From contig NZ_JAQFWQ010000016.1 in the NCBI RefSeq assembly GCF_027706725.1, positions 1-64,000 on the forward strand: a stretch of 64,000 nt of DNA, read 5' to 3'. The position numbers and the translations under genes are program-made. Shown here piece by piece: positions 37,437 through 62,226 of the stretch. The notes under the pieces are model-generated. The model had not been told where the DNA came from. It searched no databases and saw only the letters and a list, made by a program, of their open reading frames with translations. The first letter of the stretch is position 1. Every line of letters begins with the position of its first letter. This DNA comes from Nocardiopsis endophytica. GTDB taxonomy: Bacteria > Actinomycetota > Actinomycetes > Streptosporangiales > Streptosporangiaceae.

Positions 37437-38807
37437 TCAGCCCAGCCGGGAGTCGCTGCCGCGCGGGCCGATCGGGGCCTGGTCGGAGTCGATGCCCGGT
37501 GCCCAGTCGAAGACCACGGAGTCCTCCTCGGTGCCGATGTAGACCTCGGCCCCCGCGGTGGCGCCCGCCTTGGCGAGGGCGTCCTCGATGCCGAGCCGGT
37601 CGAGGCGCTCGGCCAGGTAGCCGACGGCCTCCTCGTTGGAGAAGTCAGTCTGGCGGACCCAGCGCTCCGGCTTGGTGCCGCGGATCCGGAAGATGTTGTC
37701 GCCCAGGGAGACGACCTCGAACGAGGCCTCGCCGATCTCGCGGGGGCGCAGGACCACCCGGGTGGGCTCGGGCTCGGGCCGGGCGGCACGGGCGCGGGCG
37801 ACCTCGTCGCCCATGGCGAAGGCCAGCTCGCGCAGGCCCTCCCGGCTGGCGGCGGAGACCTCCAGCACCTTCAGGCCGCGCTCCTCCAGCATGGGGCGCA
37901 CGATCTCGGCCAGGTCGCGGGCGTCGGGCACGTCGATCTTGTTCAGGACGACCAGGCGGGGCCGGTCGGACAGGTCGACCTCCATCAGCTCGCCGTAGGC
38001 GGCCAGCTCGGCCTCCAGGGCGTCGAGGTCGCGGACCGGGTCGCGGTCGGGGTCGTAGGTGGCGGTCATGCAGTCCAGGACGTGCACGAGGGTGGAGCAC
38101 CGCTCGATGTGCCGCAGGAAGTTCATGCCCAGGCCGCGCCCCTGGCTGGCCCCGGGGATGAGGCCGGGGACGTCGGCGACGACGTACTGCACCTCGCCGG
38201 AGTCGACGACGCCGAGGTTGGGGATCAGCGTGGTGAACGGGTAGTCGGCGATCTTGGGCTTGGCCGCCGACAGGGCCGCGATGAGCGAGGACTTGCCCGC
38301 GCTGGGGAAGCCGACCAGGCCGACGTCGGCGATGGTCTTGATCTCCAGGCGCACGTCGGCCGACAGGCCCTCCTCGCCCTTGAGGGCGAACCCGGGGGCC
38401 TTGCGCTTGGGCGAGGCGAGCGCGGCGTTGCCGAGGCCGCCCGCGCCGCCGTCGGCCAGCACGAGCCGGGTCCCGGCGCCGACGAGGTCGGCGATGACCT
38501 CGCCGTCCGCACCGGTGACGACGGTGCCGTCGGGGACGGGCAGGACCAGGTCGTCGCCGTTGGCGCCGTTGCGGTTGCCGCCCTTGCCGGGCGTGCCGTT
38601 CCCGGCCCGGCGGTGGGGGCGGCGCTGGTATTCCAGGAGGGTGGCGATCTGCGGGTCGACCTCCAGGACGATGTCGCCGCCGCGCCCGCCGTTGCCGCCG
38701 TCGGGGCCGCCGAGGGGCTTGAACTTCTCCCGGTGGATGGAGGCACAGCCGTGCCCGCCGTCACCGGCCTTGACGTGCAAGGCCGCTTCGTCGACGAAAT
38801 CGGGCAT
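37437..38807 (-). CDS. obgE: GTPase Obg/CgtA
   Basis: The 456-residue ribosome-assembly GTPase has the Gly-rich Obg fold (1-158; [17 protein letters not shown]), the G domain with Walker [10 protein letters not shown] (166-174), [14 protein letters not shown] and VSAASREG, and the C-terminal OCT domain (about 350-430; [23 protein letters not shown]). It helps 50S maturation and the stringent and growth responses. The start at 38807 begins MPDFVDEA, the family norm; the longer frame to 38915 is ignored. In most actinomycetes obgE directly follows rpmA; here a CRISPR array separates them. Confidence 0.97.
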
Positions 38808-39030
38808 GTGCCTGGTTCTCCCCGTGTCGCGCCGGCGCGCACTCCGGCGCGCGGTTCCTGCCGTGTGAAAGCCCTCGACCCGCCGGTCCGATCCGGGCGG
38901 GGAGGAATGATCCACCGCTCACCACTCTAGACGGTCGGGCCGACCGACGGCGAAGGCATGGGCGGGAGGGAGACCGATCACACCGTGGGGGCGGGGTGTG
39001 ATGCCGGACGGCGCCCGTCGGACGGCCCCC

Positions 39031-39996
39031 GGCGCTTCCCCGCGCGTGCGGGGCTCCCGACCGACCCGACGCCCATCCACACGGAGGCCGACAAGGGTCC
39101 ATCCCCGCATGTGCGGGGCATTCAAGGACAGCCAGGCTGACGTGAACTAGGTTCCATCCCCGCCTGTGCAGGGAGTGCGGGGGACCGCCCGCACCGGTGA
39201 ACACGGTGGTCGGGTGGCCCATGGTGGTGAACGTGCTGCTCGTGGTCAATATGTGGCCATCCCCGTCCGAGCGGGGAGAACGGAGGCCCTCGCCAAGCGG
39301 GTCCTACCGAAGGGTCCATCCCCGCGTCGCGGGGCAGCCAGTCTTCACGATCCTCACAGAGACGATCGGCGGTCCATCCCCGTCACGCGGGGAGCGGTCC
39401 ATGTGCGTGAACGTCGTCGTCGGGTCCTTCCTGGTTCCATCCCCGTGCACATGGGTGGCAGAAGGCTATCGATCAAGGCGGTCCATCCCCATACGTGCAG
39501 GGCGCACCGAGGTCTTCGCCCACCCGATCGAGACGGCGGGTCCATCCCCGCGCGGGCGGGGCCTACCTCTGCAGTCGTTCCAGGGGTCGTTCTCGATCGC
39601 GGGTCCATCCCCGCGCGTGCGGGGTAGCGGGCCGTCGGAAGGATCTTCGTCGAGGAGCAGCGGGGTCCATCCCCGCGCGGGCGGGGAGCACGGAGTCGGC
39701 GAACTCAGCGAGACGTCGGTGACGGGTCCATCCCCGCGCGTGCGGGGAGCACCCATCCACCAGGGGCGCCTTCCCGCCATCCGCGGGTCCATCCCCGCGC
39801 GTGCGGGGAGCACGGTGTCGGGTCGGCTAGTCGTCCTCGGCGGTCGGGTCCATCCCCGCGCGGGCGGGGAGCACCCCCGCGACGTCGGGGACTTGTGGGC
39901 AAGGCCGGGTCCATCCCCGCGCGGGCGGGGAGCACTCGACAGCGCGGAGCTGGCCGCCGAGATCGTGCGGTCCATCCCCGCGCGGGCGGGGAGCAC
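39031..39996 (-). CRISPR. Orphan CRISPR array with type I-E-like repeats, decayed at its left end
   Basis: Repeats are 28 bases: they begin GGTCCATCCCCGC and end GCGGGGAGCAC on the plus strand, with an inner CCCCGC/GCGGGG stem. Regular units start at 39969, 39908, 39847, 39786, 39725 and 39664 (period 61, spacers 33), then 39602 and 39539 with changed ends. About eight more decayed units start near 39480, 39434, 39371, 39313, 39254, 39151, 39096 and 39031. Two repeat versions differ at the loop base (G or T). Type I-E repeats run GTGCTCCCC...GGATGGACC in the transcript sense, so the array should be read leftward with its leader on the right. No cas gene is in the window. Confidence 0.93.
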
Positions 39997-40069
39997 TCTC
40001 GTTGACCTGGGGCGTTCCCTCCCGGCACTGCCCTCTCATGCCACTTCGCACTCCCCCATCATCCACGAA
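39997..40069 (-). promoter_or_regulatory. Candidate CRISPR leader
   Basis: The 73 bases between the first intact repeat and the rpmA terminator are the only space for a leader. The region is not AT-rich and I see no clear promoter, so transcription may depend on read-through from rpmA. Confidence 0.4.
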
Positions 40070-40105
40070 AGGCGGGCCGGAAGGGTCCCCCCTTCCAACC
40101 CGCCT
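40070..40105 (-). terminator. rpmA terminator
   Basis: AGGCGGG (40070-40076) with CCCGCCT (40099-40105) and GGAAGGG (40079-40085) with CCCTTCC (40090-40096) form a two-part stem with a short loop, followed on the minus strand by TTCG. It lies 35 bases past rpmA and before the CRISPR leader. Confidence 0.75.
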
Positions 40106-40139
40106 CTACGCGGAATGCTCCGTCTCGCGGCGCGCCTGG

Positions 40140-40400
40140 TTACTCGGCGACGGCCGGTACGATGCTGACGGCCTTGCGGCCGCGCCGGTTGCCGAACTCG
40201 ACCTTGCCCTCGACCAGCGCGAACAGGGTGTCGTCGCCACCGCGGCCGACGTTGTCGCCGGGGTGGAACTTCGTCCCGCGCTGGCGGATCAGGATCTCGC
40301 CGGCCTTGACGGACTGGCCGCCGAAGCGCTTGACACCGAGCCGCTTAGCGTTGGAGTCGCGCCCGTTACGGCTGGACGATGCGCCCTTCTTGTGTGCCAT
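40140..40400 (-). CDS. rpmA: 50S ribosomal protein bL27
   Basis: The 86-residue L27 starts [29 protein letters not shown], the standard form without an N-terminal propeptide, and contains [16 protein letters not shown]. It sits near the peptidyl transferase centre of the large subunit. It follows rplU by 14 bases and is co-transcribed with it. Confidence 0.98.
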
Positions 40401-40414
40401 CGGGGAGCCCTCCT

Positions 40415-40723
40415 CTACTTGGCGATGCCGGTGACGCGGACCCGGGTGTACTTCTGGCGGTGACCCAGGCGCTTCTTGTAACCGGTCTTGTTCTTGTATT
40501 TGATCATGTTGATCTTCGGGCCCTTGGTCTCGCCGAGGACCTCGGCGGTGACCTTGTAGGCGCTCAGCTCGCTGGAGTCGCTGACGACCTTGCCGTCGTC
40601 GACGACCAGCAGCGGCTCCCAGGACACCGTCGAACCGGCCTCCTCGGAGACCCTGTCGATGTTCAAGACGTCATCGACAGACACCTTCTCCTGTCGGCCG
40701 CCCGCTCGCACGATCGCGTACAC
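40415..40723 (-). CDS. rplU: 50S ribosomal protein bL21
   Basis: The 102-residue L21 starts [13 protein letters not shown] after its first residue and ends with the basic [20 protein letters not shown]. The GTG at 40723 is the natural start; AGGAAGAGAG precedes it. The open frame up to 40882 is upstream leader. A hairpin at 40747 lies directly ahead of the ribosome site and could affect translation. Confidence 0.97.
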
Positions 40724-40746: not shown

Positions 40747-40774
40747 GGACAATCCCCGCCGAGGCGGGGAGTGA
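40747..40774 (-). promoter_or_regulatory. rplU leader hairpin resembling a CRISPR repeat
   Basis: CCCCGC and GCGGGG (with CGAG loop on the plus strand) form a stem 24 bases upstream of rplU, next to its ribosome site. The 28 bases match the CRISPR repeat in this window at 20 positions, in the same orientation. It may be an r-protein leader element or a stray repeat. Confidence 0.5.
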
Positions 40775-48906: not shown

Positions 48907-51114
48907 TCACTCCCCCGCCGCCAGGCCGATGGTGCCGTCGGGCCGCACCTCGGGCAGGTCCTCCTGGGGCTCGCCGCCGGGCAGGTCCGGGTCGCCGCCC
49001 TTGACGCTCTTGTCCTCGCCGCCGGCGCCCTTCCCGTCCTTGTCGTCCCCGCCCTCGCGGGTGAAGCCGTAGATGCCCTCGTAGATCTCCCGGACGATGG
49101 GGGCGGCGGTCTCGCCGCCGGTGCCGCCCTTGGGGACGACGACCACCACGGCCAGCCGCGGGTCGTCGGCCGGGGCGTAGGAGGCGAACCAGGCGGTGGA
49201 GTCGCTGTTGAGCGCCGAGCCCGAACCGGTCTTCCCGGCGATGGAGACCTCGTCCTGCGGGAACCCGCCGAAGGCGCCGCGCGCGGTGCCCTCCTTGGGC
49301 ACCTGGGTGACGGCCTTCTGGATGTAGGACAGCACCTCCGGTGGCACGTCCAGCCTCCCGGCCTCCTTCGGCTCGATCCGCTTCACCGTCTCCCCGTCGG
49401 CCGAGACCAGCGCCTTGCCCACGCGCGGCTCCCACAGGGTGCCGCCGTTGGCGACGGCCGCGTAGGCGCGCACCAGCTGCAGCGGCGTCACCAGCACGTC
49501 GCCCTGCCCGATGGAGAAGTTGACCGCGTCACCGGCGCGCCACCGGTAGCCGTCGGTGCAGTTCTCCTTGGCGACCCTCTTCAGGTACGAGGCCCGCCCC
49601 GGGTCCTTCTCGGCCACGCCGGGGTAGCCCTCCTTGGCGCGCTTGCAGCTCTCCTCCTTGGTGGCCTCCCACAGCTCCCTCTTCCACTCGCGGGTGGGGA
49701 TGCGCCCGGCGGCCTCGTGCGGCACGTCGACGCCGGTGGGCCGTCCGAACCCGAAGTCCTCGGCGGTGCGGGCGAACACGTCGTCGGGCTTCTTCTTGCG
49801 CCCGTCCTCGCGCCACTCGTCGTAGGCCATCTGGTAGAAGACCGTGTTGCAGGAGACGACGATGGCGCGGTGCAGGCTGAGCGCGCCGTGCGCCGACCCC
49901 TCGTAGTTCTCGAAGGAGCGGTTGCCCACCGAGATGGAGGAGGGGCAGGAGTAGGTGCCGCGCAGCGCCTGCCCGCCCTTCACCCCCGCCGCCAGCGAGG
50001 ACACCTTGAAGGTGGAGGCGGGCGGGTACTGCCCCTGCATCACCCGGGAGGTCAGCGGCGACCCCGCCTCCTCGCTGAGCAGCTCCTCGAACGTCTTCTG
50101 GTCGATCCCGCCCTGCCAGACCGACGGGTCGTAGCCGGGCAGGCTCGCCGAGGCGACGATGCCGCCGGTGCGCACGTCCATCACCACGCCCGCGGCGGTG
50201 GACGCGGGGTGGCCGGCGCCGCGCGCCCGGTCCAGGCCGCGCCGCAGGGCGTCCTCCACGGTCCGCTGCACCCGCTGGTCGATGGTGGAGACCAGGTGCA
50301 TGCCGGGCTCGGGGGCCTGCTCGTCGACGAGGCCGGTCACCTCGCCGTGGTTGTTCACCGCCAGGGTGCGCACCCCGGCGGTGCCGCGCAGCTCGGGGTC
50401 GTAGGTGGCCTCCAGGCCGTCCCGGCCGACCTGGTCCACACCGCTGTACTGGGTGCGCAGCTCCTCGCGGGCGTCCAGCTCCTCCTGGGTGACCGGCTGC
50501 AGGTAGCCGAGCGCCTGGGCGGCCAGGTCGCCGTTGGGGTAGTCGCGCACCGCCAGGTGCTGGGCGGAGACGCCGGGGAAGTCCTCCGAGCGCTCCATGA
50601 TCTGCAGCGCCGCCTTGGGGTCGACGTCGTCGGCCAGGGTGACCGGCTGGTACGGCGAGCCGGGCCAGCAGGGGCGGCTCACCTCCGGGCCGCACAGCCG
50701 GGTGCGCTTCTTGACCGTGTCGGCGGGCTCGCCCACCACCTCGGCCACCCGCTCCAGGACCTCGGCCCCCTGGTCGGGCATCCGCTGCAGGGCGTGCCAG
50801 TCGGCCGAGACGACCAGGGCGGTGCGGTTGCGCACCAGCGGCCGCCCCGCCTGGTCCAGGATCAGGCCCCGGGTGGCGGGCACCACCAGCTCCTGGGTGT
50901 GGGTGGCCTCGGCCAGCCGCGAGAAGTGCTCGCCCATGGGCACCTGCAGGTACCACAGCCGCACGCCCAGCGCCGCGAACAGGGCCAGGACCAGCACCTG
51001 GGCCAGGACCAGCCCGCGGCGCCCGGGCGCCGCGCGGGCGGTGGGCCCACCCCCCGGCGCCTCTCCGCCGCGCCGCCGGGGGCGCCCCGGCCGCCTCCTC
51101 CTCATCCACGCCAT
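48907..51114 (-). CDS. mrdA: Penicillin-binding protein 2 (transpeptidase)
   Basis: The 735-residue class B PBP has an N-terminal basic cytosolic part, a membrane anchor (about 35-55; GLVLAQVLVLALFAALGV), a dimerisation domain (about 70-290) and the transpeptidase domain with SxxK in PPASTFKVSS near 367, SCN in VVSCNTVF and KTG in IAGKTGSG near 626. Together with RodA it builds the cylindrical wall. The C-terminal 45 residues are Asp/Gly/Lys-rich and probably flexible. The ATG at 51114 follows GGAGGG and overlaps the mreD stop region. Confidence 0.95.
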   Translation of the reverse strand: MAWMRRRRPGRPRRRGGEAPGGGPTARAAPGRRGLVLAQVLVLALFAALGVRLWYLQVPMGEHFSRLAEATHTQELVVPATRGLILDQAGRPLVRNRTALVVSADWHALQRMPDQGAEVLERVAEVVGEPADTVKKRTRLCGPEVSRPCWPGSPYQPVTLADDVDPKAALQIMERSEDFPGVSAQHLAVRDYPNGDLAAQALGYLQPVTQEELDAREELRTQYSGVDQVGRDGLEATYDPELRGTAGVRTLAVNNHGEVTGLVDEQAPEPGMHLVSTIDQRVQRTVEDALRRGLDRARGAGHPASTAAGVVMDVRTGGIVASASLPGYDPSVWQGGIDQKTFEELLSEEAGSPLTSRVMQGQYPPASTFKVSSLAAGVKGGQALRGTYSCPSSISVGNRSFENYEGSAHGALSLHRAIVVSCNTVFYQMAYDEWREDGRKKKPDDVFARTAEDFGFGRPTGVDVPHEAAGRIPTREWKRELWEATKEESCKRAKEGYPGVAEKDPGRASYLKRVAKENCTDGYRWRAGDAVNFSIGQGDVLVTPLQLVRAYAAVANGGTLWEPRVGKALVSADGETVKRIEPKEAGRLDVPPEVLSYIQKAVTQVPKEGTARGAFGGFPQDEVSIAGKTGSGSALNSDSTAWFASYAPADDPRLAVVVVVPKGGTGGETAAPIVREIYEGIYGFTREGGDDKDGKGAGGEDKSVKGGDPDLPGGEPQEDLPEVRPDGTIGLAAGE

Positions 51115-62137: not shown

Positions 62138-62226
62138 TACCGCTCCGCGAACGCGGGGATGGAGACTGTTTGATCGTTCCCTGCCCGATGAGCATTTCCA
62201 GCGCCCCGCACGCGCGGGGACGACCC
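62138..62226 (+). CRISPR. Possible two-repeat CRISPR relic
   Basis: Two 28-base units at 62138-62165 and 62199-62226 match the transcript-sense repeat of the main array at about 18 and 21 positions. Their GCGGGGA cores are exactly 61 bases apart, the period of the main array, leaving a 33-base spacer. They lie in the 290-base gap between a membrane protein gene and the terminator of the folC operon. Without more units the call is tentative. Confidence 0.35.

Follow-up and report, generated by a model that had tools for sequence, protein, structure and literature searches.

In type I-E CRISPR (clustered regularly interspaced short palindromic repeats) systems the leader-proximal repeat serves as the template for each new one, which makes the repeats within an array uniform. 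We analysed a type I-E array of 16 repeats located between rpmA and obgE of Nocardiopsis endophytica, in the stretch of 64,000 nucleotides at positions 1 to 64,000 of contig NZ_JAQFWQ010000016.1 (assembly GCF_027706725.1), hereafter the window. We consider it likely that this array is a satellite served in trans by a distant type I-E cas (CRISPR-associated) operon, that it has collapsed and been refilled, that its old tail has been selectively kept and that its uptake of spacers is now frozen. The type I-E system of Streptomyces avermitilis (PMC4762764) resembles the present one in its eight cas genes, its 29-bp repeat, whose hairpin follows the same plan, its A-T richer leader and its actinomycete host; however, its two arrays adjoin the cas genes and its uptake works, whereas here the arrays are scattered over at least 18 places and cas1e is broken. 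A survey (PMC12814883) describes single cas loci that serve arrays at a distance, and type I-E systems that usually have more than one array. We propose such an arrangement for our genome, which differs in its number of arrays (at least 18), its array-specific repeats and their consistent position 3' of genes. In arrays that collapse and refill, diverged repeats resist recombination, and the leader and last repeat stay old while the spacers are new (PMC8047081). The latter also appears to be the case here, although the divergence lies there in the last repeat and here spans half of the array, mostly in flank and loop. The ectopic repeats of CreTA likewise degenerate and become stable against recombination (PMC9458426), but they are one or two in number and use a toxin RNA to guard the cas locus to which they are linked, whereas our array has 16 repeats on a contig different from that of the cas operon; a toxin RNA was not sought.

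Array architecture and the distant cas operon

The 16 repeats run on the minus strand from 39996 to 39031, with the leader at the high-coordinate end (Table 1). The six regular repeats at 39969, 39908, 39847, 39786, 39725 and 39664 lie exactly 61 apart, are perfect except for one loop position and score 27-29 in an ungapped consensus scan, in which 16 kb of neighbouring sequence used as background gave nothing above 11. Two flank-altered repeats at 39602 and 39539 are followed by eight diverged ones (39480, 39434, 39371, 39313, 39254, 39151, 39096 and 39031) at spacings of 46-103. Seven of these eight score 14-18, and the weakest, at 39434, scores 11 and is backed solely by its place in the series. 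The units fill the whole interval, so that at most one is missing, and a further unit may have left its handle alone near 39213. With repeats of 28-29 nt, a CCCCGC/GCGGGG hairpin, a period of about 61 bases and, directly upstream of the first repeat, a leader common to other arrays, the array is of the known type I-E kind; it is unusual in the number of arrays, in placement and in its selective old tail. The scan thus bears out the first-pass annotation of this DNA, which had described type I-E-like repeats between rpmA and obgE, six of them regular, two with changed ends and about eight degraded with irregular spacing, and its placement of the leader at the right and the older part at the left is supported as well. 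Its gradient of decay is better described as a step, the mismatches per repeat counted from the leader being 0-1 in the first six, then 3, and then a plateau of 6-9. The two loop variants it had seen do recur, but without strict alternation (counted from the leader they are C,C,C,A,A,C,A,C, which in plus-strand letters is G,G,G,T,T,G,T,G). Elsewhere in the window, at 62138-62226 on the plus strand, two degenerate type I-E repeats exactly 61 bases apart have mostly kept their stems and lack the leader motif; they form a relic mini-array.

The array had been called an orphan, and indeed no cas gene was seen near it. However, the genome, a 7.26 Mb draft of 211 contigs, holds elsewhere, on contig C2, one type I-E cas operon with a complete set of genes, where NCBIfam models identify Cas3, Cse1, Cse2, Cas7, Cas5e, Cas6e, Cas1e (in two pieces) and Cas2e; by Pfam, Cse1 and Cse2 have one match each in the genome. 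We rejected the orphan label, since the cognate Cascade genes with Cas3 are present together with Cas6e, whose absence the annotation had named, along with that of crRNA, as the mark of a dead array, and since the leader is common to other arrays. Next to cas3 lies the end of an array with at least 22 near-identical repeats; after cas2 comes one unit of leader and repeat. Repeat and leader searches together gave 16 arrays with the leader motif and two more (C77 and C11a) in which the leader end is shifted, that is, at least 18 leader-bearing loci, and the repeat type differs array by array within the genome. The unit after cas2 (L032, 8897-8978) and another on C11 (L037, 2871) consist of a leader and a single repeat with no recognisable second, and are collapsed or newly founded arrays. 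A solitary perfect stem with an ATGGACC handle also occurs at L040 4835-4862 (C33, about 49334-49361), overlapping the 3' end of a gene with a PaaD-like (suf) gene after it; it is above chance by our estimate and is possibly a relic or a recruited element.

The leaders of the genome's arrays, about 50 bp long, end in CAGGTCAnnnAG against the first repeat. Where arrays were picked by the repeat alone, almost all of them have a variant of CCAGGTCAnnnAGn adjoining the first repeat, and most arrays picked in this way in other genera show the same leader end. The later genus-wide leader search used the end motif as query and the invariance of the motif there is partly built in, yet a comparison of 46 independent array positions in six genomes shows conservation also at sites outside the search pattern (-8, -7 and an A/T-rich block from -50 to -38). 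Beyond about 50 bp the leaders of the genus are unlike each other. We take the common end motif to be a putative docking site for Cas1-Cas2. Spacer insertion at random hairpins was rejected as the main origin of the arrays, because leader elements are common up to 50 bp upstream. In one genome of another genus (G022, 4.9 Mb, 14 scattered arrays, L241-L251) many scattered arrays share a leader of about 305 bp at roughly 88-92% identity, which looks like a recent multiplication of whole leader-array units.

Divergence of the old repeats and the state of spacer uptake

The mismatches of the nine old or altered internal repeats to the consensus are concentrated in the 5' flank (rate 0.47) and the loop (0.42), with stem (0.09) and handle (0.06) largely spared. 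Fisher's test of flank and loop versus stem and handle gives 8e-11 for these nine repeats, 2e-8 for the seven strongly diverged internal ones and 5e-8 with a hypothetical added unit having lost its whole stem. Repeat recognition leans on stem and handle and introduces some bias; yet nearly all units of the interval were recognised. In the last repeats of other arrays (n=59) the stem is kept and the handle is free (0.39), as expected, because no spacer follows it. Several arrays of the genus also carry paired stem changes, such as CTCCGC with GCGGAG and CCCTGC with GCAGGG. We read the sparing of stem and handle together with the paired changes as probable selection for the processing of CRISPR RNA (crRNA). 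Neutral decay of a fossil array predicts evenly spread changes, which is not what we see, and the first-pass view of a fossilising trailer end does not hold in its simple sense. The same pattern would offer a way to judge from sequence whether crRNA is still produced by an old array.

Although the interference genes look intact, cas1e is 127 bp shorter than the intact genes of the sister species G001 and G002. The loss, roughly positions 44-84 in terms of the Cas1e model, falls exactly between two copies of CCGGCGGCC and leaves one copy and a broken reading frame; it looks like a deletion by replication slippage and is probably real. Because of this deletion and frameshift, spacer uptake has probably stopped in this strain; cas2e is intact, and the defect concerns present activity and not the kind of array. 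Rescue by another Cas1 was considered and rejected, since the two others in the genome do not resemble type I-E. These two genes (L163, C1:38721-39587, and L167, C15:60541-61398) are closest to type I-C in one case and to type I-G, in a long Cas4-Cas1-like frame, in the other; being of other subtypes, they indicate that the genome holds more CRISPR systems.

History and neighbourhood of the rpmA-obgE position

RpmA was searched in 31 genomes and found in 30. Arrays stand downstream of the gene in this genome (G000), G001 and G002, and G005 has at this position the leader with one clear repeat and perhaps one degenerate repeat; there is none in G003, G004 or the other genomes examined, nor at 80 named ObgE loci, the nearest of which is that of Murinocardiopsis flavida (80% identical). 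A single gain in the ancestor of G000, G001, G002 and G005, four of the six genus genomes compared, is the simplest account, because the tree groups G005 with the other three, apart from G003 and G004. Leader-side and array-to-obgE DNA differs by only 6-9% between G000, G001 and G002, and the species have similar last repeats at this position. No spacer is common to the three, contrary to what the annotation had named as a sign of inactivity. The same leader with different spacers and a similar last repeat fits a collapse and refill in each species, a process described in PMC8047081. The claim that the leader end stays functional accordingly divides: on evolutionary time the leader end was active, because the spacers of the sister species differ wholly, and for the strain as it is now the claim probably fails, with cas1e disrupted. 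Flank and loop of the tail differ by far more than the 6-9% between sister species, and for this reason the tail probably existed before these species diverged, and G001 and G002 would have lost it. Another array of G005 (L238) has several duplicated spacers, spacer 4 recurring at 8-11.

At the 46 array positions the nearest upstream gene has the same sense as the array in 39 (including one mixed group and one position without a called downstream gene) and the opposite sense in 7, with a two-sided binomial probability of about 2e-6 against the one half expected at random by symmetry. Restricted to purely tandem neighbours the count is 17 to 6 (P 0.035). In the present genome every array with a called upstream gene is sense, and in the other genera examined, which have long leaders, the bias is less clear. 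Promoter avoidance could account for much of it, and a dependence on read-through is possible.

Table 1 Coordinates in the window of the array, its leader and the neighbouring features
Feature	Position	Strand	Remarks
Type I-E CRISPR array, 16 repeats	39031..39996	-	transcribed strand minus (predicted)
Six regular repeats, GTGCTCCCCGC[A/C]CGCGCGGGGATGGACCC	39663..39996	-	61-base period
Two repeats with 5' flank replaced (CGCTA, GTAGG)	39538..39628	-	stem and handle intact
Eight diverged old repeats	39031..39507	-	changes mainly in 5' flank and loop, stem/handle mostly kept; spacer indels
Leader	39997..40052	-	conserved core of about 50 bp, common to other arrays of genome and genus
Leader end motif CAGGTCAACGAGA	39997..40009	-	abuts first repeat
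Strong hairpin between rpmA and leader	40062..40114	-	probably rpmA terminator; -47.6 kcal/mol for folded 76 nt
rpmA (ribosomal protein L27)	40140..40400	-	upstream neighbour, same sense
rplU (ribosomal protein L21)	40415..40723	-	
Array-to-obgE interval	38808..39030	-	conserved in G001 and G002 (8-9% divergence)
obgE	37437..38807	-	downstream neighbour, same sense

The array begins 143 bp downstream of rpmA and ends 223 bp before obgE, all in the same sense. We think that array and obgE would be transcription units separate from rpmA, because a strong hairpin follows rpmA and, with a different sequence, does so in array-free relatives too. The array-to-obgE interval, far longer than in those relatives, probably carries obgE's own promoter; a promoter scan of the locus, uninformative for a GC-rich host, identified none, and an Rfam search of the locus gave nothing credible. 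A repeat-like hairpin, CCCCGCCTCGGCGGGG, lies between rne and rplU (40747-40774, minus strand). G001 has an identical copy in this place, and G003, G014 and G006 have more diverged ones there; given this conservation in place it is not an array remnant, and it is probably a terminator or a 5' UTR (untranslated region) element.

Favoured explanation, alternatives and meaning

In the explanation that we favour, the one operon (cas3, cse1, cse2, cas7, cas5e, cas6e, cas1e, cas2e) would serve the at least 18 arrays in trans, each through its own short leader, whose common end motif Cas1-Cas2 would recognise. The array would have been inserted once between rpmA and obgE, and separate collapses and refills in each species would have changed the spacers while leader and last repeat persisted. 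Here the old tail may have escaped deletion, probably because its diverged repeats recombine poorly, and it would have kept the stem and handle needed by Cas6e and Cascade while crRNAs were long made and useful. The slippage deletion in cas1e would later have frozen the memory, and existing crRNAs may still work. Several observations weigh against this explanation. The handle of the cas-adjacent array is CTGTTCC, versus ATGGACC here, and one shared Cascade is an assumption. The 5' flank, free in this tail, is well kept (0.07) in the last repeats of other arrays; selection alone does not explain this, and imprecise integration could contribute. The evidence for the cas1e deletion comes from a draft assembly. 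The match of spacers to phages and plasmids that the annotation had suggested looking for was not obtained: the phage and plasmid collections gave chance-level or repeat-like matches only, six spacer pieces of 20-24 nt had no match in IMG/VR, and pieces of the array found in the genus genomes only other arrays and chance-level matches. Immune use of the array is thus a prediction, with no protospacer found for any spacer searched.

The diverged tail with its indels, the broken cas1e and the lack of protospacers in the collections searched are also what one would expect of a dead array, a once-active satellite now unexpressed or unused, without a living leader and with repeats decaying from the trailer end; the six perfect leader-side repeats, the intact interference genes and changes that mostly avoid stem and handle, contrary to the prediction of neutral decay, make this quite unlikely. 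The old repeats may instead have been born different, inaccurate Cas1-Cas2 integration having put spacer ends in place of the 5' flank, so that faulty insertion and not selection would explain the tail. This suits a flank altered in nearly every old repeat and in the array on C15, and irregular integrations are reported for the type I-E system of S. avermitilis (PMC4762764). However, the spacings fall on both sides of 61 (46-65 and 103) with no fixed shorter value, the loops, untouched by integration at repeat ends, have changed too, and the stem changes are partly wobble-compatible, and we regard this origin as unlikely. It is highly improbable that tail or array was taken over for regulation, as a CreTA-like element or as crRNA-like guides acting on the chromosome or the rpmA-obgE transcript. 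Although degenerate repeats are common in such elements (PMC9458426) and the array sits within an essential-gene operon, the genus genomes hold no self-target beyond repeat-like or chance-level matches, the transcription units appear to be separate, judging from the hairpin after rpmA and the length of the interval before obgE, and the tail was probably lost in sister species.

Returning to the satellite array served in trans, we hold a broader proposal only tentatively and think it rather doubtful: the arrays of the genus may spread as minimal units, a leader of about 50 bp and a repeat, that settle just 3' of same-sense genes, so that one cas locus would run small memory banks genome-wide, while selection on crRNA processing would maintain the old tail, the rest of its sequence having drifted. 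The genus offers a natural series of one array position, empty, nearly collapsed, variously refilled and, in one case, with an ancient tail, and such a series makes the birth, collapse and refill of an array datable. A way for arrays to spread without mobile genes is suggested by how short the leader is and by the bias in placement.
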